A DNA stretch of 64,000 nt from contig NZ_JAOAMU010000001.1 in the NCBI RefSeq assembly GCF_025154075.1, forward strand, positions 1,271,608 through 1,335,607, given 5' to 3'. Positions within the stretch are counted from its first letter, which is position 1. The number at the start of each line of letters is the position of its first letter. This document shows, one piece after another, positions 1 to 16,026 of the stretch. The DNA is from Chryseobacterium herbae (GTDB lineage: Bacteria; Bacteroidota; Bacteroidia; Flavobacteriales; Weeksellaceae). Under the pieces are notes generated by a model that was not told the origin of the DNA, did no database searches, and saw only the letters and a list, made by a program, of their open reading frames with translations. Position numbers and translations under genes: made by a program.

Positions 1-561
1 CGGAATTTTAGAGTCAAATACATTCGGGAACCTCAAAGCGTCTTCCAAACTGCCCTGAAACACAATTTTAGCGTAGAAAAATCCGGTTTGCTCAAAAATC
101 TGATTCACCACATCGGTGTCCAAATAAGTAGTTCCGTTCAACTTAATATCGAATCCATAAAATTCGTTATAAGGTGCGTATTCAATACCTTTTTGTACTT
201 TGATAGCCTCTTTTACGGGTTCTACTTCTGTATGTTTGTAGCCACCTCCGAACAGTTCACCGTAGATCACTACCGTTTCCAATTCCGGGTGATTGGTTTT
301 CACTTTTTGGAACAAATCAATTACATTTTTTCTGTAACGTTCTAAAATTTGGTGTGCGTTGTAGAATTTTTCATCCTTTTCAATAAAGGCGGTTCTCTTC
401 GCGATCTTAATTTCCTTTCCATCGGTAAAGAAAGAGAAATTAGCCCCGTGAACCTTTTCCTGCACGATGAAAATCTCATCCCCAAAACCCTGCAACCTGA
501 TCTGATCGATCACGCGGGTTTGGTAAGCATTTTCTATAGAGTTATATGTTTTGAAAATCAT
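1..561 (-). CDS. Rnl2-type RNA ligase, partial (C-terminus outside window)
   Basis: ATP-dependent RNA ligase of the T4 Rnl2 family, which seals 3'-OH/5'-phosphate RNA ends through a covalent lysyl-AMP. Only the first 187 codons are present; the frame is open to the window edge. The nucleotidyltransferase motif I reads EKVHGANFSF, with Lys36 as predicted AMP acceptor and Gly39 completing KxxG. A motif III-like VIYGELFGGGY lies near residues 98-108 and a motif IIIa-like FYGFDI near 133-138. Motifs IV and V would lie beyond base 1. The ATG at 561 is the first start and follows a promoter (676-709). It is downstream of a cREC gene and an RNase H-like gene, a setting typical of RNA repair. The sequence shows the ligase motifs; the substrate, probably cleaved tRNA, is inferred from the neighbouring tRNA array. 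Confidence 0.85.
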   Translation of the reverse strand, partial: MIFKTYNSIENAYQTRVIDQIRLQGFGDEIFIVQEKVHGANFSFFTDGKEIKIAKRTAFIEKDEKFYNAHQILERYRKNVIDLFQKVKTNHPELETVVIYGELFGGGYKHTEVEPVKEAIKVQKGIEYAPYNEFYGFDIKLNGTTYLDTDVVNQIFEQTGFFYAKIVFQGSLEDALRFPNVFDSKIP

Positions 562-727: not shown

Positions 728-1099
728 TTATAGTTGTTTAAAATTTTCCAAAAGGCTTAGAATATTCTTCTTGCCCACCGGATTCATGGAATGACAATAG
801 AATTTTGGGAGATCCAAATAGTTATCCATACAATATTCTACCAGCCATTTGGCACAATCGTAGCCTGTTTTTTCAGTGTACTCGTCAGCATTGGGCTTCA
901 GATAATGTACATCTGCCAGGTCATGGTCAAAAGAAATGAGTTCCGGAAGTCCTTTTTCCATAATTCTGTTAACAAACTGCTCGTAATTTCGAACAATATG
1001 CCAGTCTTTTTTGAGGAAAATATCCTGTTTGGTATAATGAAACGCCTCAATCGGGTATCTTATATCATCCAGAAATAATAATCTTTTGGTGATTTCCAT
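728..1099 (-). CDS. Cyclic-phosphate processing receiver (cREC) domain protein
   Basis: 123-aa single-domain protein resembling the receiver-like cREC family found with RNA repair ligases. It keeps the acidic pair of a receiver fold (Asp11, Asp12 in FLDDIRYP), a second acidic cluster SFDHDL (Asp58, His59, Asp60), then a CHSMNP segment (His103, Ser104) and Lys110. The family is predicted to act on 2',3'-cyclic phosphate ends left by endoribonucleases; I know of no direct assay for this member. The gene starts 47 nt after the YkuK-like gene and is 166 nt upstream of the ligase. The three genes together could heal and seal broken RNA. An ordinary response-regulator receiver is unlikely because output domain and spacing differ. 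Confidence 0.7.
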   Translation of the reverse strand: MEITKRLLFLDDIRYPIEAFHYTKQDIFLKKDWHIVRNYEQFVNRIMEKGLPELISFDHDLADVHYLKPNADEYTEKTGYDCAKWLVEYCMDNYLDLPKFYCHSMNPVGKKNILSLLENFKQL

Positions 1100-1146: not shown

Positions 1147-1632
1147 TTAAACCATCATATCAGCACAATTGGTACTTGCGAATGCGTAAGGTTTTGCTTT
1201 AAACACATAGCCCATTCCCAGAATATAGCCCATAGCATCTTTCAATGCTGCATTTGACTTAAAATCAGGGTCGGTATTAATGTCTGCGTGTACCTCCATT
1301 TCCACACCATAAGCATCCAGAACGGCACAGATAGCGTAAGCAATTTCTACGGATCTGTTGACCTCGTTCAGCATTCGTTCTTTGATACTGATCTTCTGTA
1401 TTTCTCTTTCTTTTCTGATAAAGGTAAACGCTCCTTTTCCCTCACGGACAAATACTACTGCTGTAGCATAATTGATCGCTTCGCCGTACACGTGGGAATC
1501 TGAGCCCACACATACTTTCAGGCGGTGACCGTTAGCCTGTTCGCGGATGATGGCTTCTTCTACCAGCTGTGTGATAGGTTTTTGGAAAAAATTTCCTTTC
1601 ATATTCTGCCATACTTCTTGTTGCGTTTCCAT
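1147..1632 (-). CDS. Predicted RNase H-like nuclease, YkuK/DUF458 family
   Basis: 161-aa protein of the DUF458/YkuK family, which has a predicted RNase H fold. The N-terminal strand carries CVGSDSHVYG with Asp45 as probable metal ligand. Later acidic positions include Glu90 in MLNEVNRS and Asp117/Asp121 in HADINTDPDF, fitting a metal-dependent nuclease. Length matches the family. It is the first protein gene after the tRNA array, 120 nt beyond the last tRNA, and no promoter or terminator is evident between them, so it is probably read from the array promoter. Trimming of cleaved or surplus tRNA is a reasonable guess, but its activity is not established. Confidence 0.75.
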   Translation of the reverse strand: METQQEVWQNMKGNFFQKPITQLVEEAIIREQANGHRLKVCVGSDSHVYGEAINYATAVVFVREGKGAFTFIRKEREIQKISIKERMLNEVNRSVEIAYAICAVLDAYGVEMEVHADINTDPDFKSNAALKDAMGYILGMGYVFKAKPYAFASTNCADMMV

Positions 1633-1752
1633 TTTTTTACATGTTTTAAATTCTGTTTTATATTAATTTATCAATTGTGAATTGTCAATCCGTTTTACGG
1701 TCAATTTTATAAAATTCACCATTGACAATTCACTATTGACCTTCATTTTTTG

Positions 1753-1823
1753 CACTCCGAACCGGACTCGAACCGATACCATCAGTTTTGGAGACTGAGA
1801 TGCTGCCATTACACTATCAGAGT
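1753..1823 (-). tRNA. tRNA-like gene, anticodon CCA (Trp)
   Basis: Cloverleaf with acceptor ACTCTGA/TCGGAGT, T arm ATCGG-TTCGAGT-CCGGT and anticodon loop CTCCAAA on a perfect 5-bp stem. The D arm is weak (GTGT/GCAT). The discriminator is G and CCA is not encoded. It is the last gene of the array. The D-arm text AATGGCAGCAT is nearly shared with the abnormal gene at 2412-2482, suggesting common descent. Trp is the one array specificity absent from leader 2, although leader 1 has two Trp codons. Confidence 0.8.
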
Positions 1824-1889
1824 TTTTTTATAATTGATGGATGATGATTGATAATTGATACTATCTTGTCATCATCATTTATGTTTTGG

Positions 1890-1962
1890 TGGAACAGACA
1901 GGAATCGAACCTGTACCTCTAGTTTTTCAGACTAGCGTGCACACCTTGTACACCACTCTTCC
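1890..1962 (-). tRNA. tRNA-Phe-like, anticodon GAA
   Basis: Acceptor GGAAGAG/CTGTTCC with one G-G mismatch at pair 5, D stem GTGT/GCAC, anticodon loop CTGAAAA on CTAGT/ACTAG, T arm ACAGG-TTCGATT-CCTGT. The discriminator A is followed by an encoded CCA (1887-1889), unlike the other array members. Confidence 0.85.
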
Positions 1963-2065
1963 TTGGTTATTAATAATGAGTAATTGGTAATGAGCAATGA
2001 GTCATCCCGACATAGTCCTATTGGCATTTATCATTCATCAATCATCTCTCATCATTCATGTTTTG

Positions 2066-2139
2066 TACAGAAAAAGGGATTCGAACCCTCAATATCTTGA
2101 TCCTAAATCAAGCGCGTCTGCCAGTTCCGCCATTTCTGC
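2066..2139 (-). tRNA. tRNA-Leu-like, anticodon TAG, without long variable arm
   Basis: Acceptor GCAGAAA/TTTCTGT, anticodon loop TTTAGGA on CTTGA/TCAAG, T arm GAGGG-TTCGAAT-CCCTT. The variable loop is only about 5 nt (ATATT), whereas bacterial tRNA-Leu is normally type II with a long variable arm. Charging by LeuRS is therefore uncertain. Confidence 0.75.
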
Positions 2140-2331
2140 AGGTTTTATTAATAGTGAGTAATAGGTAATCAGTAATTTTAAAAATTGACTTATTGACCAT
2201 TCACAATTGATTACTCATTGCTATTACTCATTACTTATAAAATTGTGAATGATCGGATCAATTTTATCTCCTCGATCTGAACTTTCATGGTATTATTTAT
2301 TCACAATTGATTTTTGACCATTCACATTTTG

Positions 2332-2403
2332 TACTCCATAAGGGAATCGAACCCTTATCATCTGCTCGAAAGGCAGGCGTCCTAGCCGTTAGACGAATGG
2401 AGC
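2332..2403 (-). tRNA. tRNA-Glu-like, anticodon TTC
   Basis: Acceptor GCTCCAT/ATGGAGT, Glu-like D arm (TCGTCTAACGGCTAGGACG), anticodon loop CTTTCGA on a 4-bp stem plus a C-A mismatch, T arm AAGGG-TTCGATT-CCCTT, discriminator A. No encoded CCA. Confidence 0.85.
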
Positions 2404-2411
2404 GTTTTAAA

Positions 2412-2482
2412 CCAACTGACCAGGAATCGAACCTGAACAACAAGAGTACTTTTCCTGCATGCTGCCATTACATTACCAGCGG
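2412..2482 (-). tRNA. Degenerate tRNA-like gene, apparent anticodon AGT (Thr?)
   Basis: Overall cloverleaf length and the T loop TTCGATT are kept. The acceptor CCGCTGG/TCAGTTG has a mismatch and wobbles. The anticodon loop on stem CAGGA/TCTTG reads AAAGTAC, so position 33 is A instead of the near-universal U. The anticodon would be AGT. It could be a decaying gene or a tRNA mimic that is not used in translation. Confidence 0.5.
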
Positions 2483-2488
2483 TTTTTG

Positions 2489-2572
2489 TGGAAGCGGTAG
2501 GATTCGAACCTACTCAGCAATAAAGCAACAGATTTACAGTCTGCCCCGGCTCTCCAACTCCGGCGAGCTTCC
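2489..2572 (-). tRNA. tRNA-Tyr, anticodon GTA
   Basis: 84-nt type II tRNA: acceptor GGAAGCT/CGCTTCC (mismatch at pair 7), anticodon loop CTGTAAA on GCAGA/TCTGT, long variable arm as expected for bacterial Tyr, T arm GTAGG-TTCGAAT-CCTAC, discriminator A. It directly follows repeat copy A (2641-2720). Confidence 0.9.
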
Positions 2573-2640
2573 AGTATGATGAGTAATAGGTAATTAGTAA
2601 TGAGCAATTTCTAACTTCTAATCTCTAACCTCTCTTTGAA

Positions 2641-2720
2641 GAAAAACAAAGCCTGTCTTAATTTTTTGTTTGATATAAGAACTTCTGCGCCTGACAAACT
2701 TTTATTTTTTCTTCTGAACT
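2641..2720 (-). repeat. Array repeat, copy A
   Basis: About 80 bp. A central block of 43 bp (AAACAAAGCCTGTCTTAATT onward, plus-strand reading) is identical to copy B at 2812-2891. On the minus strand GTTTGTC and GACAGGC could form a 7-bp stem with G-U pairs. The stretch 2573-2954 holds copies A and B and AT-rich spacer, with no gene that I can see. Function unknown; see copy C at 3130-3209. Confidence 0.7.
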
Positions 2721-2811
2721 AACTAAATTTTATAAATGATAAGTGATATGTAATCTTACAACTCCCTCTAATTTCTAATTTCTAACTTCTAACCTCTAAT
2801 TTCTATTTGGA

Positions 2812-2891
2812 AAAAAACAAAGCCTGTCTTAATTTTTTGTTTGATATAAGAACTTCTTCGCTCGACAAACTTTTACTTTTTCTCCGGAACT
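2812..2891 (-). repeat. Array repeat, copy B
   Basis: Near-identical to copy A, differing mainly around GAACTTCTTCGCTCGAC and in the flank. It lies between the decayed tRNA (2955-3039) and copy A. On the minus strand an uninterrupted frame would give KSLSSEEVLISNKKLRQALF with no good start codon, so a structured RNA or decayed sequence is equally possible. Confidence 0.7.
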
Positions 2892-2954
2892 AATCTCATT
2901 TTAGTTATTTGAGATGGTTATGGGATTGTTCATAACCATTTTATTTTTTTATTG

Positions 2955-3039
2955 AATTCACGAATGTTTCTCATTTTAAACCCACTCAGCTTACGCAACG
3001 GTTTTGTAGACCGCCCCGACTCTTCCACTACGGCGAACC
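2955..3039 (-). pseudogene. Decayed type II tRNA, anticodon loop CTACAAA
   Basis: The 5' half matches the Tyr gene closely: a GCCG...GGAAGAGTCGGGGC D arm and an anticodon stem CGGT/ACCG with loop CTACAAA, which gives anticodon ACA (Cys codon TGT). The 3' half has lost the T loop: GTGGG is followed by TTTAAAA and no complementary strand or matching acceptor. It is probably a duplicated Tyr-type unit whose 3' end has eroded. The right boundary follows GGTTCG; the left boundary is approximate. Confidence 0.6.
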
Positions 3040-3129
3040 ATCAGATGTGATTATAAATGATAATTGATAGTTGATAGTGAATTTTCACACCACTTTTAAT
3101 TTCTAACATCTAACTTCTCAATAAAAAAA

Positions 3130-3209
3130 GAAAAAGGCTGTCGGTATTTTCCATATTTGGCGTAAAGATCTTCTGCTCTTGACCCACCTTATTTCTTCTC
3201 TTTTGAAAC
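3130..3209 (-). repeat. Array repeat, copy C (diverged)
   Basis: Diverged relative of copies A and B, aligned through GGCTGTC...TTT...AAAGATCTTCTGC...TGACCCACCTT (plus-strand reading). It precedes the decayed tRNA in transcription order, just as copy A precedes tRNA-Tyr. This suggests that a repeat-plus-type-II-tRNA unit was duplicated. Confidence 0.5.
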
Positions 3210-3229
3210 AATTAACATTTAGTTATCTG

Positions 3230-3301
3230 CGATTCCGGAAAGATTCGAACTTTCAACTTCCGGTTTAACAGACCGGCGCTCTACCATTGAGCTACGAAAT
3301 C
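3230..3301 (-). tRNA. tRNA-Asn, anticodon GTT
   Basis: Canonical: acceptor GATTTCG/CGGAATC, D arm GCTC/GAGC, anticodon loop CTGTTAA on CCGGT/ACCGG, T arm GAAAG-TTCGAAT-CTTTC, discriminator G. No encoded CCA. Confidence 0.92.
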
Positions 3302-3412
3302 ATTTTTTTATGTGAATTGTGAATGGCAAATTATCAATCCGCTTTGTTGTCAATTTTCAAATTCACTTGCGAAGCAAAATTCACAATTGACCATTCACTT
3401 TTTCATCTTTTG
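3302..3412. repeat. Spacer inverted repeat between Asn and Ile tRNAs
   Basis: The spacer contains GTGAATGGCAAATTATCAAT near its start and CACAATTGACCATTCAC near 3382-3398, joined by AATTCACTTGCGAAGCAAAA. The outer arms are complementary and could fold into a hairpin. The same arrangement fills the next spacer (3487-3601), so these are homologous repeats, possibly processing sites. Confidence 0.6.
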
Positions 3413-3486
3413 TAATTCCGGAAGGACTCGAACCTTCAACCTTCGGCGTATCAGACCGACACTCTAACCACTTGAGCTACGAAATT
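3413..3486 (-). tRNA. tRNA-Ile, anticodon GAT
   Basis: Canonical: acceptor AATTTCG/CGGAATT, D stem GCTC/GAGT, anticodon loop CTGATAC on TCGGT/GCCGA, T arm GAAGG-TTCGAGT-CCTTC, discriminator A. No encoded CCA. Confidence 0.92.
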
Positions 3487-3601
3487 GTTTTTTATTTGTG
3501 AATGGTCAATTGTCAATTCGTTGTACTGTCAATTTTTTTTAAATTCACTTGCGAAGCAAAATTCATAATTGACCATTCACTTTTGCCTTTGGCAAAACTT
3601 G
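3487..3601. repeat. Spacer inverted repeat between Ile and Pro tRNAs
   Basis: Homologous to the spacer at 3302-3412: GTGAATGGTCAATTGTCAAT (3497 on) is complementary to ATAATTGACCATTCAC (3569-3584), with the same central CACTTGCGAAGCAAAA. Related fragments occur at 1670-1740, 2190-2215, 2300-2327 and 4081-4150. Confidence 0.6.
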
Positions 3602-3673
3602 TCTGGAAAGCAAGATTCGAACTTGCGACCTCCCGCGTCCAAGACGGGTAAACAACCACCGTTATCTTTCCAG
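3602..3673 (-). tRNA. tRNA-Pro-like, anticodon TGG, weak D arm
   Basis: Perfect acceptor CTGGAAA/TTTCCAG, anticodon loop CTTGGAC on CCCGT/GCGGG, T arm GCAAG-TTCGAAT-CTTGC, discriminator A. The D arm is poor: TAACGGTGGTTGTTTA gives only about 3 pairs. Confidence 0.82.
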
Positions 3674-3742
3674 TTTTTAAGGTTCTGCTTCCAATTTCTT
3701 TTCCGGGAGACAGCCGGGATTAAAATTTTCCATGAACCTTTG

Positions 3743-3814
3743 CGGTCTATGCGGGAATCGAACCCGCAGTGCCCAAGAGACAGTCGGGCAGGTTAGCCTT
3801 TACCTCAATAGACC
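3743..3814 (-). tRNA. tRNA-Asp-like, anticodon GTC
   Basis: Acceptor GGTCTAT/ATAGACC perfect, D stem AGGT/ACCT, anticodon loop CTGTCTC on CCCGA/TTGGG, extended by outer TG/CA pairs, T arm GCGGG-TTCGATT-CCCGC, discriminator G. Bases 37-38 of the loop are TC instead of the usual purine at 37, which is unusual. Confidence 0.82.
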
Positions 3815-3820
3815 TTTTTG

Positions 3821-3894
3821 TAATTCTGAGAGGAATCGAACCTCTAACCTTCGGTTTAGAAAACCAACGCTCTATCCGGTTGAGCTACAGAATC
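3821..3894 (-). tRNA. tRNA-Arg, anticodon TCT
   Basis: Acceptor GATTCTG/CAGAATT, D stem GCTC/GAGC, anticodon loop TTTCTAA on TTGGT/ACCGA, T arm GAGG-type with TTCGATT loop, discriminator A. It reads AGA/AGG; leader 2 carries an AGG codon close to its end. Confidence 0.9.
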
Positions 3895-3996
3895 AATAAT
3901 TGATGAATGATGCTTGATGAATGATAATTATTTGTCAAACGATGACTCTTATTTTTCATCTTCTAACTTCTAATTTCTAGTCTCTAACATCTATCG

Positions 3997-4070
3997 TAAT
4001 CCCAGAAGGAATTGAACCTTCAACCCCCGGTTTAAAAGACCGGTGCTCTGACCAATTGAGCTATGAGATT
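3997..4070 (-). tRNA. tRNA-Lys, anticodon TTT
   Basis: Acceptor AATCTCA/TGGGATT, D stem GCTC/GAGC, anticodon loop CTTTTAA on CCGGT/ACCGG, T arm GAAGG-TTCAATT-CCTTC (the T loop has A in place of G at position 57), discriminator A. tRNA-Lys is a common target of anticodon nucleases such as PrrC. Confidence 0.9.
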
Positions 4071-4165
4071 GTTTTTTACTGTGAATGGTCAATTGTCAAT
4101 TCGCTTAACCTGTCAATTTTAAATTTCCAATTCACCATTGACCATTCACATTTACTTTTACTTTT

Positions 4166-4238
4166 GGGTATCTTCGGGGATCGAACCCTGTTCTCCGGTT
4201 CCACAGACCGGCGCTTTACCAAATAAGCTAAAGAAACC
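4166..4238 (-). tRNA. tRNA-His-like, anticodon GTG, first gene of the array
   Basis: Acceptor GGTTTCT/AGATACC with a T-T mismatch, D stem GCTT/AAGC with one extra base before it, anticodon loop CTGTGGA on CCGGT/ACCGG, discriminator C as is typical for His. The T stem CAGGG/CCCGA has two mismatches. It starts 2 nt after the T-run of the attenuator terminator at 4241-4269. Confidence 0.8.
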
Positions 4239-4240
4239 AT

Positions 4241-4269
4241 AAAAAAAGCACCTCTTTTCGGGAGGTGCT
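4241..4269 (-). terminator. Attenuator terminator of leader 2
   Basis: On the minus strand AGCACCTC-(7 nt)-GAGGTGCT forms an 8-bp GC-rich stem followed by a run of six T residues, a textbook intrinsic terminator. It lies between leader ORF 2 and the first tRNA. Its 5' arm with upstream TATATAC (4263-4276) is also complementary to the last codons of leader 2 (4307-4319, AGGTGCTTATATA), so terminator and antiterminator are mutually exclusive. Confidence 0.85.
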
Positions 4270-4301
4270 GTATATATTTTGACGTGTCAGATCACTGAGA
4301 C

Positions 4302-4418
4302 CTACGTATATAAGCACCTTTTATCAATAAATTCACTATTCAGAATACATGTATATCCTTTCGGATCCTGTCCGTCTAGTCCTGAATACTGATTAGATAT
4401 GTTATGTAATTGTTTCAT
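4302..4418 (-). CDS. Leader peptide 2 of the tRNA array attenuator (38 aa)
   Basis: Short ORF starting MKQLHNISNQ and ending FIDKRCLYT before TAG. It holds 16 different amino acids (all but Ala, Val, Trp and an internal Met). These include 12 of the 13 readable array specificities (His, Lys, Arg, Asp, Pro, Ile, Asn, Tyr, Thr, Glu, Leu, Phe) plus Cys. The segment AGGTGCTTATATA in codons Arg34-Tyr37 can pair with the 5' arm of the terminator at 4241-4269. A ribosome that reaches the stop codon would cover this segment and allow termination. One stalled earlier for lack of a charged tRNA would leave it free to block the terminator. The regulatory role is inferred from this layout. The peptide itself probably has no function. 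Confidence 0.75.
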   Translation of the reverse strand: MKQLHNISNQYSGLDGQDPKGYTCILNSEFIDKRCLYT

Positions 4419-4480
4419 TATATTCTTGTTATTTAAAAAGTTTTGAATCCTGAAAACCTGTTGCTTTCAATTTTCGGTTG

Positions 4481-4512
4481 CAAAGTAAGTATGAAATTTT
4501 TTAATCTGCAAA
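4481..4512 (-). promoter_or_regulatory. Possible promoter of leader 2
   Basis: On the minus strand TTTG (4509-4512), 20 nt, then TTACTTTG (4481-4488, one mismatch to TAnnTTTG). The start codon of leader 2 would be about 60 nt downstream. The stretch 4419-4739 otherwise shows only short ORFs without clear coding character, for example a 20-codon Asn/Lys-rich ORF beginning at about 4711. Confidence 0.45.
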
Positions 4513-4739
4513 TTTATTTTTCGTTTAAATATTTGATAATCAATAAGTTAAATTCAATTTTCAGCATATAGAATAACCGTCCACAATATCCTGCGGATCT
4601 CTTAAATACCTAAATGACTGTCTCTCATCGGGTTACTTATCACTCTTATTTATCGTATTAAATTGTCATTGTTAATTAAAAAATTTTTGTTTTTACGGTT
4701 ATTTTTTTTCATTCTAAATAATTTATGGCCTAAAACACA

Positions 4740-4772
4740 AGAAACGCCTCGAGTTATCGAGGCGTTTCTGTG
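4740..4772 (-). terminator. Strong terminator of leader 1
   Basis: A 13-bp perfect inverted repeat, AGAAACGCCTCGA-GTTA-TCGAGGCGTTTCT on the plus strand, extended by CACA/TGTG with one bulge. On the minus strand it is followed by TTGTGTTTT. It comes 25 nt after the stop of leader ORF 1. The 5' arm (CACA...CGCCTC, 4759-4772) can pair alternatively with leader codons 31-34 (GAGGCG and TGTG, 4824-4836), giving about 10 pairs around an internal loop. Being symmetrical, it may also act on the plus strand. Confidence 0.75.
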
Positions 4773-4797
4773 GTATTTTGTTTAAATTCTTACGGGT

Positions 4798-4926
4798 TTA
4801 TTGTAAATAATTTTCAAAGCAAGCACATTTCGCCTCATTCCATATCATCCATTCGTATCCGAATAATCCTTTTATTGAAGGGCTATCGCATAGATTTACA
4901 TTGATATGTGCTCTTTGTAGTGTCAT
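4798..4926 (-). CDS. Leader peptide 1 containing all 20 amino acids (42 aa)
   Basis: Short ORF beginning MTLQRAHINV and ending ENYLQ before TAA. In 42 codons it uses all 20 amino acids, including Trp twice, Cys three times, Met internally and His once, and about 29 different sense codons. This is what a sensor for depletion of any charged tRNA would look like. A well-formed promoter starts transcription just upstream of this ATG, which rules out the longer in-frame start at 4989. A strong terminator follows. Segment GAGGCG-AAA-TGTG (codons Glu31-Cys34) could form an antiterminator. The attenuation role is inferred; the peptide is not similar to any family I recognise. Confidence 0.72.
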   Translation of the reverse strand: MTLQRAHINVNLCDSPSIKGLFGYEWMIWNEAKCACFENYLQ

Positions 4927-4938
4927 AATTTTATGGCG

Positions 4939-4967
4939 CAAAGATAGGAAAAATTGTTTTTCAGCAA
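4939..4967 (-). promoter_or_regulatory. Promoter of leader 1 / tRNA array operon
   Basis: Perfect Bacteroidota-type promoter on the minus strand: TTG (4965-4967), 18 nt, TATCTTTG (4939-4946). Transcription should start about 5 nt downstream, leaving a very short untranslated leader before the ATG at 4926. Confidence 0.8.
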
Positions 4968-5028
4968 TGAAAATAATGCTTTTGCTCACCGAGCAGGGGA
5001 ATATTTTAAGTGGAAAAACTATTTAGGC

Positions 5029-5205
5029 GGTGGCTTCGAGTTCCTCAGCCACCTTGTATTTGTCGATGTAAGAAATTTCTTCTTATCTTTTAATGCTTGA
5101 ATTTCTAAATCTTTAAATTTTAAAATAACTGCCTCATTCATAAAGAAAGTATTTCATTAAAACTAAGGCTACAGTTCTAGGTGGCTGAGGCAACTCGAAG
5201 CCACC
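5029..5205. repeat. Short inverted-repeat element (MITE- or REP-like)
   Basis: Two opposed copies of an imperfect palindrome: GGTGGCTTCGAGTTCCTCAG continuing to CCACC (5029-5053), and GGTGGCTGAGGCAACTCGAA continuing to CCACC (5180-5205). Each copy folds on itself through GGTGGCT/AGCCACC and the two copies pair with each other. The 125 bp between is AT-rich and codes for nothing. It lies between the end of the bpX operon and the leader promoter, so it may be a small mobile element or a terminator for the operon. Confidence 0.6.
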
Positions 5206-5239
5206 TGCCATTTTTTAAATCTTTAAAATCTTTAATTTT

Positions 5240-6259
5240 TCAATTCCTCAACATCTTATTCCTCCCCGTCTTAAACCTCGAAATATCCTTCAAGATCACA
5301 CTGTCATCAGGGTTAAAATATTTCAGTTCATTAATGATCTCAGAACGTGTACCTACCTTTTCTGCAATAATTTCATAGGCGATACTCCGTGTTACAGGCT
5401 GTAGTTTATGATCTTTTTTAAACTCATGTTTCATGGCTTCAAGGTAGGTCGTCTTTTTATAGGACGGTGTTTTCTGATAAAGCTTCTGGATTTCCTTTTC
5501 CAGTTTTCCGATATCAAAAACATTGGCGAAATAGTTATTCAGACAGTTGAAGGCGTCTTTATCTTCCTCCCAGCCTTTCAGCAGAATTTCCTGGGCTTCT
5601 TCTGGCTGCTCCATCTTTTTGCTGTATACCAAAGAGGCTTTTACCATCTGATTATTGCCTGTATAATCATCTGCAACCATCTGATAATAGATGTGGGCAT
5701 TTTTTATATCATTAATTTCCCGGTAAAGATCCCCTACTTTTTCTTTCTGTTGCAATTCTTTGTACAGGTCAATTGCTTTTTTGTACTGTTTTGCCTTTTC
5801 AAAGCATGAGGCAGCTTCTGATTTATTGTTTAATTTTTTCAGATACACCGCTGCCGCTTCATTGTAGAAACCGCCGTCTTCCAGTGTTTTCGCCCCGCGG
5901 AAATTGTCCTGAAGGAGATTCATATATACTTTAGCCGCTTTTTTGTAATCGTTTTCTGCGATATATTTTTCAGCAAGTTCTTCATATTTACTTCGGATCC
6001 TGTCAAATAAAGAGGCTTCGAGGTAGAAATTTCCACCCCCTGAACCCCGTCTGCCGGAATTATTTCTATTCTGTTCCTTATCTTTTAGCGCAGTGATTAC
6101 TATCATGATAATAAAAGCTACCACAAGGAAAATAGCCAACGTTCCTACAACACTCCAAAAGCTTTCGTGAAACAGCTGTGCTCCTATCCCAATGATTTTA
6201 AACACCGCCAGGATCATAAATGCGAGCAGGAATTTGTCTATAAATTTCTGTTTATTCAT
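5240..6259 (-). CDS. Membrane-anchored helical-repeat protein, last gene of the MoxR/vWA/bpX operon
   Basis: 339-aa protein with two predicted membrane helices near residues 9-29 and 35-58, a short basic linker, then a long all-helical region with TPR-like repeats (AEKYIAENDYKKAAKVYMNL, LYREINDIKNAHIYYQMVAD). Such repeats usually hold partner proteins. Its ATG overlaps the end of the preceding gene by 8 nt, indicating translational coupling. I infer that it is a membrane scaffold of the ternary system. No enzymatic motif is visible. The exact family is not assigned. Confidence 0.75.
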   Translation of the reverse strand: MNKQKFIDKFLLAFMILAVFKIIGIGAQLFHESFWSVVGTLAIFLVVAFIIMIVITALKDKEQNRNNSGRRGSGGGNFYLEASLFDRIRSKYEELAEKYIAENDYKKAAKVYMNLLQDNFRGAKTLEDGGFYNEAAAVYLKKLNNKSEAASCFEKAKQYKKAIDLYKELQQKEKVGDLYREINDIKNAHIYYQMVADDYTGNNQMVKASLVYSKKMEQPEEAQEILLKGWEEDKDAFNCLNNYFANVFDIGKLEKEIQKLYQKTPSYKKTTYLEAMKHEFKKDHKLQPVTRSIAYEIIAEKVGTRSEIINELKYFNPDDSVILKDISRFKTGRNKMLRN

Positions 6260-7958
6260 CGTTGTCAGGGTTTAAAATGGTTTTGTCTTCACTGAACAGC
6301 CTGTAAAGGAGAAGGATGACACAGATCACCAGAATCCATACAAACCAGTTGTAACCGAACATTTTTATCAGTGGATAAAACAGATACACCAGCATGGACA
6401 CAAGGAATACCGACAAAATAATCTTCACCCAAAGCGGAACACTGTCTCCGCCAAGGTTTAAAGATTTTCTTTTGAAGATAAAAGAATAAATTCCTACCGC
6501 TCCAAACATAAAAATCACAAGATAGAGGATATCCGAAACTTTTGTTTTTTCAGGTGAACTGCTTTCGCCGGACTCGAGTTTTCCTATTTTTGAATCTTTA
6601 ATTGGAGACGGAGGAAGCTCCATCATATCAAGTGTTCCATACAATTTTCCAAGAGAATCTGCCATGAGCACCTGCTTTTTCTTTAAAACAAATTTTACAA
6701 CCTCGCCATTCACAGGTTTTCCCTTACTGTATTGCTTCAGGGAATCTGAAATGCGGCGTTTCATGGTCGCTTCCTGCTGAACCAGATGCTTCGTTATCTT
6801 TTTTGAGTATACGATTTTCAGGGAATCTCTGCTGTTCTTTTCTCTGCTGTTGAGTTTTTCTATGTCGTTACCAACCTCGCCAAGGTTTCTGCCGCCTGCT
6901 TTTTTATATTGTTCTCTTTCGTTTTGATCTTTTGACATCGCGGCACCGGCTGTAGAATATTCACGGGACAGTTTTTTTCTTGTCTTTCCGTAAATGGAAT
7001 CAATTTTCATGTCAATATCCGTCACGCCGGACTGGTACGCGATCATATCGGCGCGGGCTTTATCAGCACCGTTCATGATTTTACCTGATGAAACGAGAAA
7101 ATCTTCTTTCAGCGTCTTGTCTTTATCTGAAGGCATGAAAATCCTGAATAGTATCGCAATGACGACAACAGCCCAGAATATTCTACGGAAATTGCGGGTT
7201 CCAGCCGTTTCTTTTTTATCTCCGGAGCCTCCGAACAAGGTGCTCAGCCAGCTGTTTCCAAATGTAAAATTTCCAAAGCCATCACCACGGGAAGTTCCCA
7301 TAATATCCAATGGCACTCCCAGATCAACCGCTCTGTCAGGATATTTTTCTATATATTGTAAATATTTTTCAATCTCTTTTTTATTTCCGTCCATCACTTT
7401 TTTAAGGTCAAAAGGCAGGTTTTTCATCCATTCTTCTTCGTTCTTCGGTTGCTGAAGGGCGGCCAGAATTTTCTCATCATCCATCTCAACCGTAAAACTC
7501 TCGATGTATTGAGGGGTTTTCACGCCATTCGATGGTTTTCTTACTTTACCTTGTGTTATTTCTGGTTCCTGTAGCACAGAAAGCCAGTCTATTTCTTCTG
7601 ACAGTTTTACAAATCCAAATTCCGGATGCATAATCATCAATCTTGTTCCTGCAGACTGCCAGTCTTCAGGATTGATCTTTGGGTAGAATATAGTATTTTC
7701 AGGGATAAAAATTTGATCGTCTACACATTGGAAATAGGCATTCTTTCCAATTTCCTGAGGAGCTTCATGATAAAATACCAGCAGACATCCGTACAGAACA
7801 TTAGGCTGATCTGCCGGAATTGCATAGGATTTTACTTTATTGAGATCGAGTCCCAATACTTCCATTTCGTGAAGCCATACCTTCGGTGACGGGTCCTTGA
7901 TCAAAACCCCTTTCTTAGGATAGCTGTTTTTCGGAAAAGGTTTTATTCTAAGCTCCAT
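6252..7958 (-). CDS. bpX-type protein with membrane segments, ternary system component
   Basis: About 568-aa protein. The N-terminal 250 residues form a soluble domain (MELRIKPFPK...) like the bpX modules that accompany MoxR/vWA pairs. A membrane helix follows (FWAVVVIAILFRIFM), then a polar, partly coiled region, then three membrane helices toward the C-terminus ending in a short charged tail. An in-frame TTG lies 18 nt upstream, but the ATG at 7958 overlaps the preceding stop (ATGGAGCTTAG), a usual coupling arrangement, so I chose it. The role is inferred: it may anchor the ternary complex in the inner membrane. Confidence 0.7.
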   Translation of the reverse strand: MELRIKPFPKNSYPKKGVLIKDPSPKVWLHEMEVLGLDLNKVKSYAIPADQPNVLYGCLLVFYHEAPQEIGKNAYFQCVDDQIFIPENTIFYPKINPEDWQSAGTRLMIMHPEFGFVKLSEEIDWLSVLQEPEITQGKVRKPSNGVKTPQYIESFTVEMDDEKILAALQQPKNEEEWMKNLPFDLKKVMDGNKKEIEKYLQYIEKYPDRAVDLGVPLDIMGTSRGDGFGNFTFGNSWLSTLFGGSGDKKETAGTRNFRRIFWAVVVIAILFRIFMPSDKDKTLKEDFLVSSGKIMNGADKARADMIAYQSGVTDIDMKIDSIYGKTRKKLSREYSTAGAAMSKDQNEREQYKKAGGRNLGEVGNDIEKLNSREKNSRDSLKIVYSKKITKHLVQQEATMKRRISDSLKQYSKGKPVNGEVVKFVLKKKQVLMADSLGKLYGTLDMMELPPSPIKDSKIGKLESGESSSPEKTKVSDILYLVIFMFGAVGIYSFIFKRKSLNLGGDSVPLWVKIILSVFLVSMLVYLFYPLIKMFGYNWFVWILVICVILLLYRLFSEDKTILNPDNDE

Positions 7959-10329
7959 AATCCAGGATTTGATCAATAAATGATGTTAAATACTGGGAAT
8001 ACATTTCGTCCAGGGTTTTTACTTTCAAAAGCGTCTGCTTCGGAAGATAATATTCTGAACCTCCATACTCTGTATTTGTGGACAATGCAAGAAAACCATA
8101 CTCCGTGGAGGGAATATAAAATGTGGGAATTCCTGTATTGCTACTATTAAAAGTAAGCATTCCACGGGCATCTGTAATGATTTCACTGCCGTCCTGAAAT
8201 GTAAATTTATTTTTGTTCTGCTCAGCAAGAATCTTCACCGTAAATCTGTTTTTGTAAAGGTTTAGTGAATTATCATACAATCTGCACAGTTCATTTCCTG
8301 AGATCACCAGATTATTATTTTCATTGATTCCCATCCGGTTGAAATTGCTAATGATCTTCATTCCACTTCGGTTCAGCTTCGCCACTTCCGTTTCAGCTTT
8401 TGCAATATTTTTATCTATTTCACGGTCATCATTAAAAACGGATTCTACAGATAAATTCCCCTCTAAACTGATTTTATAAAGAGAAGAATTCGTAGGCTGG
8501 TGCAGATAAAAATTCCTGCTGAAATAGGTCAGATGATAGGAACTCTGAATATTCAATCCCGTAACGTTGAATTCAGAATATTCTTTTGTGTTCAGATTCA
8601 GTTTGGAAATGAGTTTTTTATCCGGCTGATACTGGCAAAGGATAAACTGTTGCTGCTTATTTTTCGCCAGGGCAAACTGTCCTCTCGGTTTTACGGAAAT
8701 ATCTTCGATCAGGACTTCGCATCCATGATACGTTTTGTAATAATCGTAGGAGCTGCGGTCATAATAATTATCAGAAAGATACGTTTTCAGCAGCTGTTTT
8801 TTTGAACTTAAAATATAAAATTCGCCTTCGTATAAAAACTGCGCAATTTTATTGGAAGGTGTCGGAAACAGGATCGGATAATTTTGTGGAAGATCCGTTT
8901 TCTTGCCATTAATGGAAGTCGCTTTCAGTTTACGCTGTGGCGGATTAGCCCATAATTCCTGTAGCGGAAGTTTTATCTTTTGGATGTGTTTCCGGGCTCC
9001 TTTATGATGCTTATAAAAATTCAGTTCGCCATCTGAGGAAGTCGTAATCAGGAATTTCAGGCGGTCCCTGTTTTCGTGGATCACTTTCCGAACTTTTTCA
9101 TCGGCAAGATTTTCCTGATGGGTAATGAAGAACACTTCAAGGTCTTTTTCCCGATGATCTTCATTAAAAAATTTCGCCAGCGCTTCCGAAACTTCCAGAA
9201 TAGGACTTACCTGATTCAGGTTTTCAATAACGTCTTCCGTTTTATCAAGAGACACCGGTAATCCGGCCTGTCCTAATGCAAAAACCTTACATTCAGAATG
9301 GGCTTTCGGATGTCTGATCACTGCAATAGCCGATGCAAACGCTAATACTTTTGGGGTTCCCCAGTTTCTCAGGGAAGTATCAATTAAAATGGCTCTTTCA
9401 AATATATTTTCTTCCGGCGGAATCTCTCTCTGGATGTACAGGGCTTCATTATTTGCGACACGGTTCATGAACACCTCATCTTCATTGGCAAATTCGGAAA
9501 GCAGCATTCTGTGGAGGTCGCCTTTATTCGCCATATCAGAAATTCCCCCGATGGGTTGTTCCCCGGGAGATAAATGACGCATGGGAATTCTCAGTCCGCT
9601 CCAGATTCTTTTGATCAGACTTCCTACCTGAAAAGTTTTCGGCTCTTCGATGAGTTGCTGGATAAAATCTTTATCGGTTTCTACGGTAGTTTCTTCCTCT
9701 ACAACTTCATCGTCCAGCTCAGGTTCATCGATGTGATCGCGCATAGCATCAATGATAGACTGTACGGTAGGAAATTTTTCATTCAATAAATCAAGGGCGC
9801 TTAAATCTCTGTTGATGGCGGATGGTCCTGCATATTTTTTCTCCGCACTTGCCGCCAGCATGTAGGGCCTTTTATAGTAGATTGTCAGAATCATTTCTGC
9901 TTTGCCGGGAGCTATCCTATTGTGGGCATCCTGAAAAAGGGTCTGAAACAGAACGATCCTGTTCTGTCCATGTTTGTAAACTCTGTTTAATGACTTCAGC
10001 TTTTCAAGAAACTCGATACTCTTCTCTGCGGTGAAGTCGAAATTTCCAATGCTGTGAAAATTAGCCGTATGTTTCAGAGGACCTGCAAAATCGGTGTAAC
10101 CGTCCTGCATCGCGTACAAAACCATCAGCAATGCCCCGAAAGGAGGCCATCCCTGTGGCTGTAGCTCTTTCAGTATCTCCATCACATAAGGTCTGTAGGC
10201 TATTGCCCCAACACCCGGAATCGAGATGAGATTATGATCATGGTACCCGGAATCTCCGGCGATATCCTCGTCGGTTTCCCACTCCCAAAAGTAGTTTTCG
10301 TATGACTGGAAATATTCGTTTAAATCCAT
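7948..10329 (-). CDS. vWA domain fused to beta-propeller-like region
   Basis: 793-aa protein of the MoxR-vWA-beta-propeller ternary type. The first 220 residues are an unrecognised N-terminal domain. A vWA domain lies near residues 300-460: the expected MIDAS DxSxS is altered to DTSLR in AILIDTSLRNWG, so metal binding may be weakened. The C-terminal 300 residues contain repeated short strands such as YEGEFYILSSKKQLLKTYL and QFALAKNKQQQFILCQY, consistent with a beta-propeller. MoxR ATPases commonly remodel vWA partners. Start ATG overlaps the previous gene by 10 nt. Confidence 0.78.
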   Translation of the reverse strand: MDLNEYFQSYENYFWEWETDEDIAGDSGYHDHNLISIPGVGAIAYRPYVMEILKELQPQGWPPFGALLMVLYAMQDGYTDFAGPLKHTANFHSIGNFDFTAEKSIEFLEKLKSLNRVYKHGQNRIVLFQTLFQDAHNRIAPGKAEMILTIYYKRPYMLAASAEKKYAGPSAINRDLSALDLLNEKFPTVQSIIDAMRDHIDEPELDDEVVEEETTVETDKDFIQQLIEEPKTFQVGSLIKRIWSGLRIPMRHLSPGEQPIGGISDMANKGDLHRMLLSEFANEDEVFMNRVANNEALYIQREIPPEENIFERAILIDTSLRNWGTPKVLAFASAIAVIRHPKAHSECKVFALGQAGLPVSLDKTEDVIENLNQVSPILEVSEALAKFFNEDHREKDLEVFFITHQENLADEKVRKVIHENRDRLKFLITTSSDGELNFYKHHKGARKHIQKIKLPLQELWANPPQRKLKATSINGKKTDLPQNYPILFPTPSNKIAQFLYEGEFYILSSKKQLLKTYLSDNYYDRSSYDYYKTYHGCEVLIEDISVKPRGQFALAKNKQQQFILCQYQPDKKLISKLNLNTKEYSEFNVTGLNIQSSYHLTYFSRNFYLHQPTNSSLYKISLEGNLSVESVFNDDREIDKNIAKAETEVAKLNRSGMKIISNFNRMGINENNNLVISGNELCRLYDNSLNLYKNRFTVKILAEQNKNKFTFQDGSEIITDARGMLTFNSSNTGIPTFYIPSTEYGFLALSTNTEYGGSEYYLPKQTLLKVKTLDEMYSQYLTSFIDQILDYGA

Positions 10330-11063
10330 TCTTTTGTTTTTTCAGTAAGGCGGAATGAGCTTACGGACAGCTTTCGGAAATCCTCTTTTTTCACAGGAAG
10401 ATAAGTTCCGTCTTCGTTCCATAACAGCCATTTGTCCGACGCTTTGTTATATTGCTGCTGCAGGAGTGAACTCAAATTTTTAAATTCAAAATCAAAACCT
10501 GAAGGCAAAAGGTGACCATCTCTGGTCCAATATGTTTTTCCCGGCAGGCTCAACAGCGGTGTTCCGAGAAACAGGGCTTTATCATCAATCACCGTCCATT
10601 CTATCTTTTCCAGTTTGAAATTCGGCTGTGCAGGAATACTATCTTTAATTTCTGTTATTGAGCTTAATAGTGCTACAGCAGGATGTTCTTCATTTCCCGG
10701 TTTCAATCTCACTTCCACTTTTTCACTGATCCCAAAATAATTATTATTGGAAGCAGGAAAAGCAAGACGCAATGCTTTATCTATCGGAGACCAGAGCAAA
10801 GCTGTTCTCATTTTTTTGCTGGGTACCAGTGCTTCTTTTTTGAATAAAAGTCCGTCACGCAGTTCGTACAGCATAAAATTAGGCAGCTGCTGGATATCTG
10901 CGGAGATAGCCTGCTCTTCGGTGAAGCCTTTCAACCAAACCGTGTCGTCATCTACTGCAATCTGCACATTTTTCCAATCCCTGATGCTGCCCAGAAAATC
11001 TTCATCGGCCCGGGGAAGTTCTGCCCAGAATTCTTTTACACCGTTTGAAGGATCTTCTGCCAT
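10320..11063 (-). CDS. bpX-family component of the ternary system
   Basis: 247-aa soluble protein starting MAEDPSNGVKEFWAELPRAD. It lies between and overlaps both the MoxR ATPase gene (28 nt) and the vWA gene (10 nt). Strand-rich segments with repeated Trp (VWLKGF, ALLWSP, WLLWNEDG) fit the bpX modules described with such operons. I cannot assign the exact bpX subfamily by eye. No catalytic motif or signal peptide is visible. It is probably an adaptor between the ATPase and the vWA protein. Confidence 0.65.
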   Translation of the reverse strand: MAEDPSNGVKEFWAELPRADEDFLGSIRDWKNVQIAVDDDTVWLKGFTEEQAISADIQQLPNFMLYELRDGLLFKKEALVPSKKMRTALLWSPIDKALRLAFPASNNNYFGISEKVEVRLKPGNEEHPAVALLSSITEIKDSIPAQPNFKLEKIEWTVIDDKALFLGTPLLSLPGKTYWTRDGHLLPSGFDFEFKNLSSLLQQQYNKASDKWLLWNEDGTYLPVKKEDFRKLSVSSFRLTEKTKEWI

Positions 11064-12169
11064 AAGCTTTCAATTTCTTGCTGAATATATTGCTTTTGCT
11101 CCGGATTTCTGATCCAGTCGCAACGGGTCTGCAGGTATCTCAATTTATCTTTGATTACATTTTGTTCTTCAAAACTCAACGTTCCGCTGTTCCATTTTTC
11201 CACAAGGATCTTTACGTCCTTCATCACTTCCTCCGGATTAGGAGTTTTGTTCTGCATCGCTTGTGGATGGGATTTCGGGTTGTCATCTTTTTCAATGGTT
11301 CTGTTGATGATTCCTTCTAGAATTTCGATCTGTTCTTCCGTGTCCCAGATATGTTTCAGTACCCAAAGGTCGGAAAGAACGGCTTCATTTCTTCCGCAGA
11401 TCAGGGCACTGGCCGCGATCAGGTTCTGAAGTTTTACCGCTCTACGGTCGGAAATAGCAATTCCCGTATTTCTTAAGCTGATGATGGTATTTAAATAGAC
11501 TTCGTAGATAGGTCTCAAATCCACTGCTTTACACAGATTCTGAAGTTCTCTGATTTCGTTTGCAAGAATTTCAGGAATATCGGTTTCCGTTTCGTTCTCT
11601 AGCTTTCTTCCAGCCAGAAGTACCTGTTGAAGAAGCTCAGGATTTACATAATCTACATTAATTCTCACCAGAAAACGGTCAAATAATGCGTTTAGAGATT
11701 CATCTTCGGGAAGAACATTACTGGCCCCTACGAACATAAGCGTAGGCAAATGTTTTGTTTCTTTTCCTCTTTTGAAAATTTTCTCGTTCAGAGCCATTAG
11801 CAGTGAATTCAGGATGGCAGAATTCGCATTGAAAATCTCATCCAGGAAAACCAGTGAAGCTTCCGGCATCATGCCTTCGGTATTGGTAAGAAGTTCACCC
11901 TCTTTTAATTTTCTGATATCAAACGGTCCGAAAATTTCGTTCGGTTCTGTGAAACGGGTCAGCAGATATTCAAAGTTTTTGCCGTCTTTCACTGTTTTGG
12001 ACAGCGTTCTTACAATCGCAGATTTTGCGGTTCCTGGAGGCCCATACAGAAATGCGTTTTCTTTAGCCAGAAGACATATTCCCAACAGGTCGACGACATC
12101 ATTTTTTCCTACGAAGGTGTCTTTTACGTAGTTGAGAACGGTATTGAGTTTTGTAATATTTTGAGTCAT
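11036..12169 (-). CDS. MoxR-family AAA+ ATPase
   Basis: 377-aa AAA+ ATPase. Walker A is GPPGTAKSAIVR (residues about 40-51), Walker B is LVFLDEIFNA (about 106-115), sensor 1 region is FVGASN and an arginine-finger candidate is LFDRFLVR. The order matches MoxR/RavA proteins, which act as hexameric chaperones on vWA proteins. It is the first gene of the tightly overlapping block; a 133-bp gap separates it from the upstream 215-aa gene. I infer that it drives the ternary system, proposed from comparative genomics to act in NTP-dependent conflict or stress responses. Confidence 0.92.
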   Translation of the reverse strand: MTQNITKLNTVLNYVKDTFVGKNDVVDLLGICLLAKENAFLYGPPGTAKSAIVRTLSKTVKDGKNFEYLLTRFTEPNEIFGPFDIRKLKEGELLTNTEGMMPEASLVFLDEIFNANSAILNSLLMALNEKIFKRGKETKHLPTLMFVGASNVLPEDESLNALFDRFLVRINVDYVNPELLQQVLLAGRKLENETETDIPEILANEIRELQNLCKAVDLRPIYEVYLNTIISLRNTGIAISDRRAVKLQNLIAASALICGRNEAVLSDLWVLKHIWDTEEQIEILEGIINRTIEKDDNPKSHPQAMQNKTPNPEEVMKDVKILVEKWNSGTLSFEEQNVIKDKLRYLQTRCDWIRNPEQKQYIQQEIESLWQKILQTV

Positions 12170-12302
12170 TAGTATTTATTTAATGAAAAATCTTAATCAT
12201 AAAAAATATATAAATTCACTTTTGATCAGTGAGAAAGCAAGATCGATATTAAAAGTAAACGAGAGTTTCGGAAAAAAGGTATGTATTCAAGTTGAAACGT
12301 GA

Positions 12303-12950
12303 TTAATCTCCATTGGCAACAATCTTCAAATCCCGCCAGTACATCTCCTTATGCAGCCCAAATTCTGCCATCAGCAATCTGTTGATATAAGGAATTTCAG
12401 CAAGTGCATACGCTTTCTTTTCAACAATTCTTTCGAGATACAATTTCCGGTACACCTTATCCTGAAGCTCTTTTTCCCAGTTTATTTTCTCTACATTCAG
12501 CGGATATCCTATTCCTGAATAATGAAATTGTGTGAGAATATCTTCCAGAATCTTCACGAGTGGGTCATAAGGATCCGCAGTCTGCAACACGGAAGCAATC
12601 TGTGGTAAAAACCTCAGGCATAAATCTGCAGACAGAATTGAAGAAACATCAGAAGTTATTTTCATCTTCGGGATCAGTTTATCCAGATCTTTAGATGTAT
12701 TTTCCCGGATCAGATAGAGCTGAGCACTGTGATACAAAACTTTAGCTCCCCAAACTGCAGCTTCTTTATTACAATTCACATCAGTAGCTAAAAATTCCAG
12801 TCTCTCTTTTTCGAACTCTGCTTCAAAATAGTCTCCGGCTTCCAGTTCTTCTTTTTTAGAAATTTCCTGCAGATTTGAAAAAACGGTAATGGATCCGCTG
12901 TTTCGCAGCAGAAAAATAGTGTCTAGAAATGGGGACTTGGTTTCCATCAT
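12303..12950 (-). CDS. Uncharacterized protein linked to the ternary system
   Basis: 215-aa mostly helical protein with no signal peptide or catalytic motif that I recognise. It begins MMETKSPFLDTIF; the second ATG may be the true start. The short variant segments ATDVNCNKEAAVWGAKVLYHS and DLCLRFLPQIASVL suggest a helical bundle. It lies 133 bp before the MoxR gene in the same direction and is likely functionally tied to that operon, but could have its own promoter. Confidence 0.6.
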   Translation of the reverse strand: MMETKSPFLDTIFLLRNSGSITVFSNLQEISKKEELEAGDYFEAEFEKERLEFLATDVNCNKEAAVWGAKVLYHSAQLYLIRENTSKDLDKLIPKMKITSDVSSILSADLCLRFLPQIASVLQTADPYDPLVKILEDILTQFHYSGIGYPLNVEKINWEKELQDKVYRKLYLERIVEKKAYALAEIPYINRLLMAEFGLHKEMYWRDLKIVANGD

Positions 12951-15896: not shown

Positions 15897-15951
15897 GTTT
15901 ATTTGAAAATTTAAGAGTTTAGTATTTCTTTTATTGTTTTAGTTTTAAAAT

Positions 15952-16021: not shown

Positions 16022-16026
16022 TTTAT

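Follow-up and report, generated by a model that had tools for sequence, protein, structure and literature searches.

Predicted tandem attenuators with near-complete amino-acid coverage ahead of a spare tRNA array and RNA-repair genes in Flavobacteriales

What could be sensed by a leader whose short open reading frames (ORFs) use almost every amino acid? The question is raised by a locus on the minus strand of a 64,000-nucleotide (nt) stretch of the Chryseobacterium herbae genome (assembly GCF_025154075.1, contig NZ_JAOAMU010000001.1, positions 1,271,608 to 1,335,607), which we call the window and whose coordinates we use throughout. Here, two short ORFs, each followed by a terminator-like hairpin, precede an array of tRNA genes, and genes for RNA repair follow the array. 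Known amino-acid attenuators respond to a single amino acid or to a small number of them. From a comparison of sequences across genomes, we predict that this leader is probably a pair of tandem ribosome-mediated transcription attenuators that sense shortage of almost any aminoacyl-tRNA.

Amino-acid coverage of two conserved leader ORFs

On the minus strand, where all features described here lie, the order is P1–ORF1–T1–K1–(H2)–P2–ORF2–T2–tRNA array–RNA-repair genes. ORF1 (4798..4926) has 42 codons and contains 20 of 20 amino acids, a set complete by codon 26, and ORF2 (4302..4418) has 38 codons and 17 different amino acids. P1 is a predicted -7 box, TATCTTTG (4939..4946), with an upstream TTG at 4967-4965; P2 (4480..4512), upstream of ORF2, reads TTTG ... 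TTACTTTG. Both promoters are sequence boxes only, labelled by what we take to be the Bacteroidota consensus, and neither box appears in the output of a sigma-70 promoter scan of the window. An earlier sequence-only reading of this DNA had described a promoter, two ORFs and two terminators before the tRNAs, all of which we recovered, and had given ORF2 16 amino acids, which we correct to 17. None of the 48 other ATG-initiated ORFs of 38-46 codons in the window contains 20 amino acids, and one contains 19; similarly, none of 12,223 30-residue segments from 28 long proteins of the window contains all 20.

The leader is conserved within the genus, as would be expected of a regulatory element of the kind first proposed. 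A DNA search with the 801-base-pair (bp) leader gave matches in 168 of the 173 genus genomes, its own genome included (G075 only at E 3e-4). Four of the five genomes with no match (G004, G042, G107 and G152) also show no RNase H-like gene, and neither do G075 and G085, where leader matches are weak or partial. We extracted 130 leaders, 122 from the 168 genus matches and eight from other genera of the same family; 125 were aligned and, separately, L062, L067, L068 and L076 were left out of one leader alignment. By the ORF finder used (L069 by hand), all 130 leaders keep both ORFs open, and the TATCTTTG and TTACTTTG boxes are kept in 122 and 125, respectively, of the 125 aligned leaders. Among the matches listed, the blastn match starts at the P1 box base in 11 of the 17 loci with a hit. 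Thus, as in attenuators, a conserved short leader ORF lies between a promoter box and a terminator-like hairpin.

Across the 130 leaders, ORF1 contains 20 different amino acids in 80 cases, 19 in 47 and 18 in 3, and ORF2 contains 16-20; taken together, the two ORFs contain 20 in 125 leaders and 19 in 5. All 20 occur within the first 30 codons of ORF1 in 65 leaders, these ORF1s being related to one another. Trp is missing from ORF1 in 10 leaders, and ORF2 supplies it in nine of them. With ORF1 holding 18-20 amino acids, we found in these leaders no regulatory codons for a single amino acid such as mark the attenuators of amino-acid operons. Shuffling alignment columns over the first 30 codons of 97 unique ORF1s gave 18.40±0.07 different amino acids versus 19.24 observed; because column shuffling lowers the count, a residue lost at one ORF1 site tends to be restored elsewhere. 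Coverage of ORF1 also exceeds that of draws from the ORFs' own composition (17.92 versus 16.16±0.17; 19.49 versus 16.83±0.13).

More distant relatives were found through two RNA hairpins between the ORFs, K1 (4609..4632) and H2 (4579..4599, 3′ of K1). A K1/H2 RNA model, built from 36 sequences and used with filters that lose weak matches, matched 11 genomes out of 395 at class level and 14 out of 247 at phylum level; the element order is the same at all phylum matches and at eight class matches. The remaining three class matches belong to families f20, f35 and f36; the f36 match (L239, E 0.008), in coding-like sequence without tRNAs, was rejected by eye as a false positive. A K1/H2 DNA pattern identified 77 loci in named genomes, including Flavobacterium, Tenacibaculum, Aquimarina, Kordia and Hanstruepera, and overlapping the earlier genome sets (G321, G377, G384, G495). 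The Flavobacterium type strain F. reichenbachii DSM 21791 (L291) is among the carriers. Two of these, L259 (Chloroflexota) and L309 (a metagenome-assembled genome), which have neither tRNAs nor the tRNA-like RNA K2 described below, were dropped to leave 75 loci, and were kept in the downstream counts over 62 loci with at least 1.5 kb of downstream sequence. tRNAs lie downstream in 57 of those 62. We conclude that the system is distributed over Flavobacteriales and some relatives, more broadly than the sequence-only reading stated. One genome (G377) holds two copies of the system (L242, L244), with differing leader peptides and arrays. PF04308, the family of the RNase H-like protein, was rejected as a marker of the system when used alone; four distant homologues (L194-L197) show no tRNAs in the available stretch.

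For the most part, the peptides at the pattern loci bear no relation to their counterparts in the window's genus. An automatic finder run on the 75 loci called ORF1 in 69, with a mean of 17.9 different amino acids versus 15.2±0.18 for protein windows of the same length, and ORF2 in 65, with a mean of 17.5 versus 15.7±0.19. Outside the window's family, the two ORFs together contain 19-20 amino acids in 50 of 60 pairs and 17-18 in 10; the ORF1s of Kordia and Aquimarina contain 18-20 (10 loci examined). Grouping the peptides into clusters removes much of the effect of common ancestry: the 24 ORF1 clusters have a mean of 18.19 different residues, compared with 15.47±0.31 for ordinary protein stretches, and 35 ORF2 clusters have a mean of 17.66, compared with 15.73±0.26. 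(A wrongly called ORF1 of 63 residues, L266, was excluded from the clusters and kept in the 75-locus and composition tests.) The short ORFs thus vary in sequence and keep broad coverage, as the sequence-only reading had anticipated.

The same ORFs could instead serve a general translation-stress sensor, induced by any agent that stops ribosomes, in which the broad set would only avoid dependence on one tRNA. We regard this as a serious alternative, albeit an unlikely one. Ribosome-targeting antibiotics induce a spare tRNA operon in Anabaena (PMC10272220), and the E. coli toiL upstream ORF (uORF) responds to at least five antibiotic classes, with stalls proposed at different positions (PMC12121999). 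Moreover, the leader ORFs are enriched in two codons, ATA and CTA, that long ORFs of the window use infrequently. However, a plain stall sensor needs no broad set, and the coverage observed exceeds both that of ordinary proteins and that given by the ORFs' own composition. Spare tRNAs and an RNA ligase would also seem a poor answer to most antibiotics, yet the Anabaena array aids antibiotic survival (PMC10272220).

Pairing between the ORFs and the terminator-like hairpins

An attenuator also needs an ORF segment that can pair with the 5′ arm of the terminator. T1 (4740..4769) is an intrinsic terminator-like hairpin of 13 bp (-21.1 kcal/mol) with a T-rich tail. T2 (4247..4269), of 8 bp (-12.1 kcal/mol) and also with a T-rich tail, lies directly 5′ of tRNA-His, and its T-run stops about 2 nt before that gene. 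The candidate antiterminator arm of ORF1, TGAGGCG (4831..4837, codons 30-32), is complementary to the T1 5′ arm; that of ORF2, AGGTGCTTATATA (4307..4319), lies at the end of the ORF and can pair with TATATA-C-AGCACCT at 4276-4263.

The position of the ORF1 arm is consistent across leaders: of the 129 leaders with a T1 call (L081 has none), 120 have their best pairing with the T1 5′ arm beginning at codon 30 or 31. The commonest pair is TGAGGCG/CGCCTCG (80 leaders), and in TGAAGCG/CGCTTCG both sides are changed. In other lineages, the ORF1 pairs are GGATGY/GCGTCC (GGATGC/GCGTCC among them) or CGGACG/CGTCCG; ORF2 arm pairs are AGGTGC/GCACCT, GGAGAT/ATCTCC or GGGAGA/TCTCCC. The arm in ORF1 and the arm in the terminator change together across the four ORF1 pairs, in agreement with the earlier expectation that terminator and antiterminator pairing covaries.

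We compared pairing scores with those obtained after shuffling codons. Summed over 14 loci, the score was 245.5 for ORF1 versus 186.4±8.8 after shuffling, and 233.5 for ORF2 versus 180.1±8.9; in the 75 pattern loci, the values were 17.06 versus 13.43±0.30 and 16.19 versus 12.82±0.30. Pairing of an ORF segment with the terminator 5′ arm is hence seen in the sum over loci and not locus by locus. We also simulated stalls in the window by placing a ribosome at successive codons, with every third codon reported, and folding only the RNA downstream of the ribosome. The terminator 5′ arm pairs with upstream RNA before the 3′ arm emerges for stalls up to approximately codon 26 in ORF1 and codon 29 in ORF2, and this upstream pairing stops beyond those positions. 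The antiterminator wins over the complete terminator at some positions only in ORF2 of L062 and L067.

These data bear on whether the ORFs might simply encode functional small peptides, with the hairpins being ordinary terminators of two small genes that happen to precede the array. The ORFs are conserved in the window's family, with dN/dS of 0.61 for ORF1 (105 unique sequences of 42 codons) and 0.50 for ORF2 (62 unique sequences of 41 codons), as a peptide function would suggest; third codon positions are barely freer than first and second positions. However, the peptides split into 24 ORF1 and 35 ORF2 clusters across which architecture, arm position and coverage persist, and a change in the ORF arm is accompanied by one in the terminator arm. 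We consider this explanation very improbable.

A comparison with Rfam over window positions 1600-5300 found no known leader or T-box above its gathering score; only the tRNA family reached its own, and Phe_leader scored 29.2 bits against a gathering score of 55 (E 0.05).

An invariant hairpin loop and the tRNA array

Between the two predicted attenuators lies K1, with a stem of GAUGA/UCAUU and a 7-nt loop, GAGACAG, that is identical in 130 of 130 leaders (125 aligned and 5 others), all recruited through leader similarity or gene neighbourhood and not through the K1 motif. In 33 diverse sequences, 79.9% of K1 stem cells are paired versus at most 44.4% in slid controls, and the covariation score is above all 500 shuffles; the numbers of both-side changes (3 pairs) and of further pair types in these sequences are not above shuffles. 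In H2, for which 36 sequences were compared, four of the five predicted pairs are altered on both sides in at least one sequence. We had considered that this middle block might encode a third leader peptide, MRDSHLG, and dropped the idea; L069 loses the start codon and frame and keeps the RNA motif.

All seven nucleotides of the K1 loop are complementary to a hairpin loop in the array, CUGUCUC, which belongs either to the anticodon arm of the array tRNA-Asp (3772..3788) or to a small tRNA-Asp-like RNA in a spacer. The latter, K2 (3679..3741), has no recognisable D and T arms, and consists of an outer stem, AAGGTTC/GAACCTT, and an inner hairpin with the CUGUCUC loop. Among the pattern loci, which were not picked for CUGUCUC, this hairpin is found downstream in 54 of 62 and upstream in none, compared with a mean of 0.4 loci and a maximum of 14 for 60 permuted heptamers. 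The final U of the loop is U37, which is present in 89 of 93 array tRNA-Asp genes; other array tRNAs have a purine at position 37 in 660 of 680 cases. A pyrimidine at this position is frequent in only one other array isoacceptor, tRNA-Glu (ttc), with U37 in 18 of 37. In a genome of the Flavobacterium group, a two-leader element (L236/L245) with no tRNA within 10 kb has its K1 loop changed to GTAACAG.

The complementarity of K1 and K2 may reflect product feedback, RNA processing, or surveillance of the anticodon loop. Carried further, the locus could be an RNA circuit centred on these two elements, in which a U37 tRNA-Asp-like loop would kiss K1 and control read-through or processing, and the ORFs would only modulate the outcome. 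The invariance of the K1 loop, its full complementarity to the K2 loop, the downstream bias of the K2 hairpin and the prevalence of U37 in array tRNA-Asp all favour such a circuit. However, no compensatory loop-loop change is seen; because neither loop varies, pairing between them is inferred only. Three Flavobacterium loci (L276, L277 and L306) keep K1 and show neither tRNAs nor K2 in the available stretch, although the search pattern itself requires K1. Finally, K1 is flanked by the two predicted attenuators and is no substitute for them. A circuit of this type is, in our judgement, distinctly unlikely as the principal mode of control.

The array itself (1752..4238) comprises tRNA-His, Lys, Arg, Asp, Pro, Ile, Asn, Tyr, Glu, Leu, Phe and Trp. 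These are 12 ARAGORN calls; the 13 tRNAs counted previously were not reproduced, and a Gln-like stretch at 2482-2412 is uncalled. The genome holds 70 tRNA matches, and all 12 array isoacceptors have a housekeeping copy elsewhere in it, 60-73% identical at best. Hence, as had been suggested, the array tRNAs are spare copies with diverged housekeeping counterparts. In nine of the 12, the 7-nt anticodon loop, as read from the printed arms, differs from that of the housekeeping partner. By eye, several spacers between array tRNAs (3330-4150) hold variants of GTGAATGGTCAATTGTGAATTTTGCTTCGCAAGTGAATT.

Behind the array, as described before, lie genes for an RNase H-like protein (PF04308, RNaseH_like; 1147..1632), a protein with a cyclic-phosphate-processing receiver (cREC) domain (PF20274, cREC_REC; 728..1099) and an Rnl2-family RNA ligase (Pfam RNA_ligase; 1..561), which is cut by the window end and has 338 residues in the genome; its match to the Rnl2 equivalog model is barely above the cut-off (198.4 versus 197.15). 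An association of cREC domains with RNA ligases has been described for genomes of both phages and cells (PMC7824862). Beyond the window, the same strand encodes an RNase Z-like protein (so named from its best NCBIfam models, with RNase Z models below cut-off), a metallophosphoesterase and two RNase T-type exonucleases. The combination of an Rnl2 ligase with end-processing enzymes is that of an Rnl2-type RNA-repair operon. Up to three proteins per locus were collected behind 45 pattern-locus arrays, and these 78 proteins include 21 Band_7 proteins, 6 Rnl2-type RNA ligases, 6 RNase T-type exonucleases and 3 RNase H-like proteins. Elsewhere in the window, a region adjoining the array (5240-12950) encodes a MoxR-like AAA ATPase (377 residues, by eye) together with large proteins nearby, which may form a MoxR-vWA ternary system. 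At 15951-16022, beside a tRNA-Ser, ARAGORN reports a tRNA whose anticodon is TCA and which it labels SeC.

What the leader may sense

In the model that we favour, when all tRNAs are charged the ribosome would reach the end of the ORF and cover, or sit between, the pairing segments, and the terminator would form. Were a cognate tRNA depleted, whether cleaved or uncharged, the ribosome would halt early and leave the antiterminator arm free to capture the terminator 5′ arm during its transcription, and RNA polymerase would continue into the array. Because every early codon is a possible stall site, a single leader would monitor almost the entire tRNA pool. Read-through would supply an inducible bank of spare tRNAs together with an RNA-repair operon. 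This output, comprising diverged spare tRNAs, the Rnl2 ligase, cREC, RNase Z-like protein and exonucleases, fits tRNA damage better than amino-acid starvation, and we infer a link to anticodon nucleases.

Several observations weigh against sensing of almost any aminoacyl-tRNA by attenuation. Coverage in ORF2 is no higher than in column-shuffled controls (18.84 versus 18.80; 57 unique sequences, 41 codons), and many ORF1s have His-Ile near codon 7 (by eye), such that some of the ORF1 clusters may be distantly related. In 42 of 60 locus pairs from outside the window's family, neither ORF contains Trp, and the "whole set" is for this reason near-exact only in the family. Six representatives from Flavobacterium, f20 and f35 have 15-18 amino acids per ORF, with a weaker excess (202 versus 185.7±5.2 over 12 ORFs). 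As for pairing, single leaders beat all 30 codon shuffles in 7% of cases for ORF1 and 33% for ORF2, and pairing in most single distant loci is non-significant. In the window, the complete terminator wins over the antiterminator at every reported stall position; since the full-length terminator is the more stable structure, antitermination there could only be kinetic. The ORF1 arm begins 12 codons before the stop, and a ribosome at the stop codon would leave it uncovered. In L067 and L069, the T1 5′ arm also pairs with upstream RNA at late ribosome positions in ORF1, blurring the switch, and ORF2 of L069 pairs weakly. Lastly, the role of K1 and K2 is not covered by the attenuator model. The proposal that any tRNA shortage would switch on the array thus gains from the conservation, coverage, arm covariation and spare tRNAs, and loses from the frequent lack of Trp outside the family and from terminators that outcompete antiterminators. 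On balance, we retain tandem attenuation as the probable mechanism.

Like attenuators of the trp/his/ilv class, this leader has an ORF, an antiterminator segment in or near it, an intrinsic terminator and a predicted stall-dependent choice. It differs from them in having no run of a single amino acid, nearly all amino acids, two tandem units, and an output of tRNAs and RNA repair. By mechanism it would be a known kind of attenuator; what appears new is the input, plus an unexplained RNA partner. Among the matches listed in a search of open-licence papers (titles and the starts of abstracts), we found no attenuator that samples the full amino-acid set.

Elements of the system have parallels elsewhere. 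The Anabaena trn operon is likewise a tRNA array beside a housekeeping set, with the RNA ligase gene rtcB under the same regulator, but that regulator is a repressor protein, TrcR (PMC10272220), whereas control here appears to lie in leader RNA. The RtcR-controlled operon carries RNA-repair genes and is induced by tRNA damage, its sensor being a CARF-domain activator that binds tRNA halves (PMC7790460); here, the predicted sensor is translation of the leader. E. coli toiL is another short ORF proposed to answer ribosome stalls at different positions, although its targets are translation and Rho-dependent termination in a toxin-antitoxin transcript (PMC12121999). The Salmonella mgtCBR leader contains two short ORFs, called tandem attenuators, but controls a protein operon (PMC3641672); the likeness drawn here concerns leader architecture. 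Extra tRNAs of phages are predicted to be insensitive to anticodon nucleases through altered anticodon loops (PMC10264068), and the nine altered loops in the array are of a similar kind; unlike the phage tRNAs, the array is chromosomal and predicted to be inducible, and the nuclease resistance of its tRNAs is putative.

Joining these strands, we tentatively propose, as a possibility rather unlikely to hold in full, that the locus is a self-contained flavobacterial response to tRNA damage, combining a near-whole-code stall detector, inducible and nuclease-resistant replacement tRNAs, a repair operon, and a kissing hairpin that tunes the response by probing the anticodon loop of a U37 tRNA-Asp-like RNA made by the operon itself. 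Independent of the joint proposal, a leader that keeps nearly all amino acids despite turnover of its peptides would sense the whole charged-tRNA pool. It would answer how a bacterium that has no protein sensor for the task could notice tRNA losses caused by toxins or phage defence, and bears on the purpose and switching of spare tRNA arrays.

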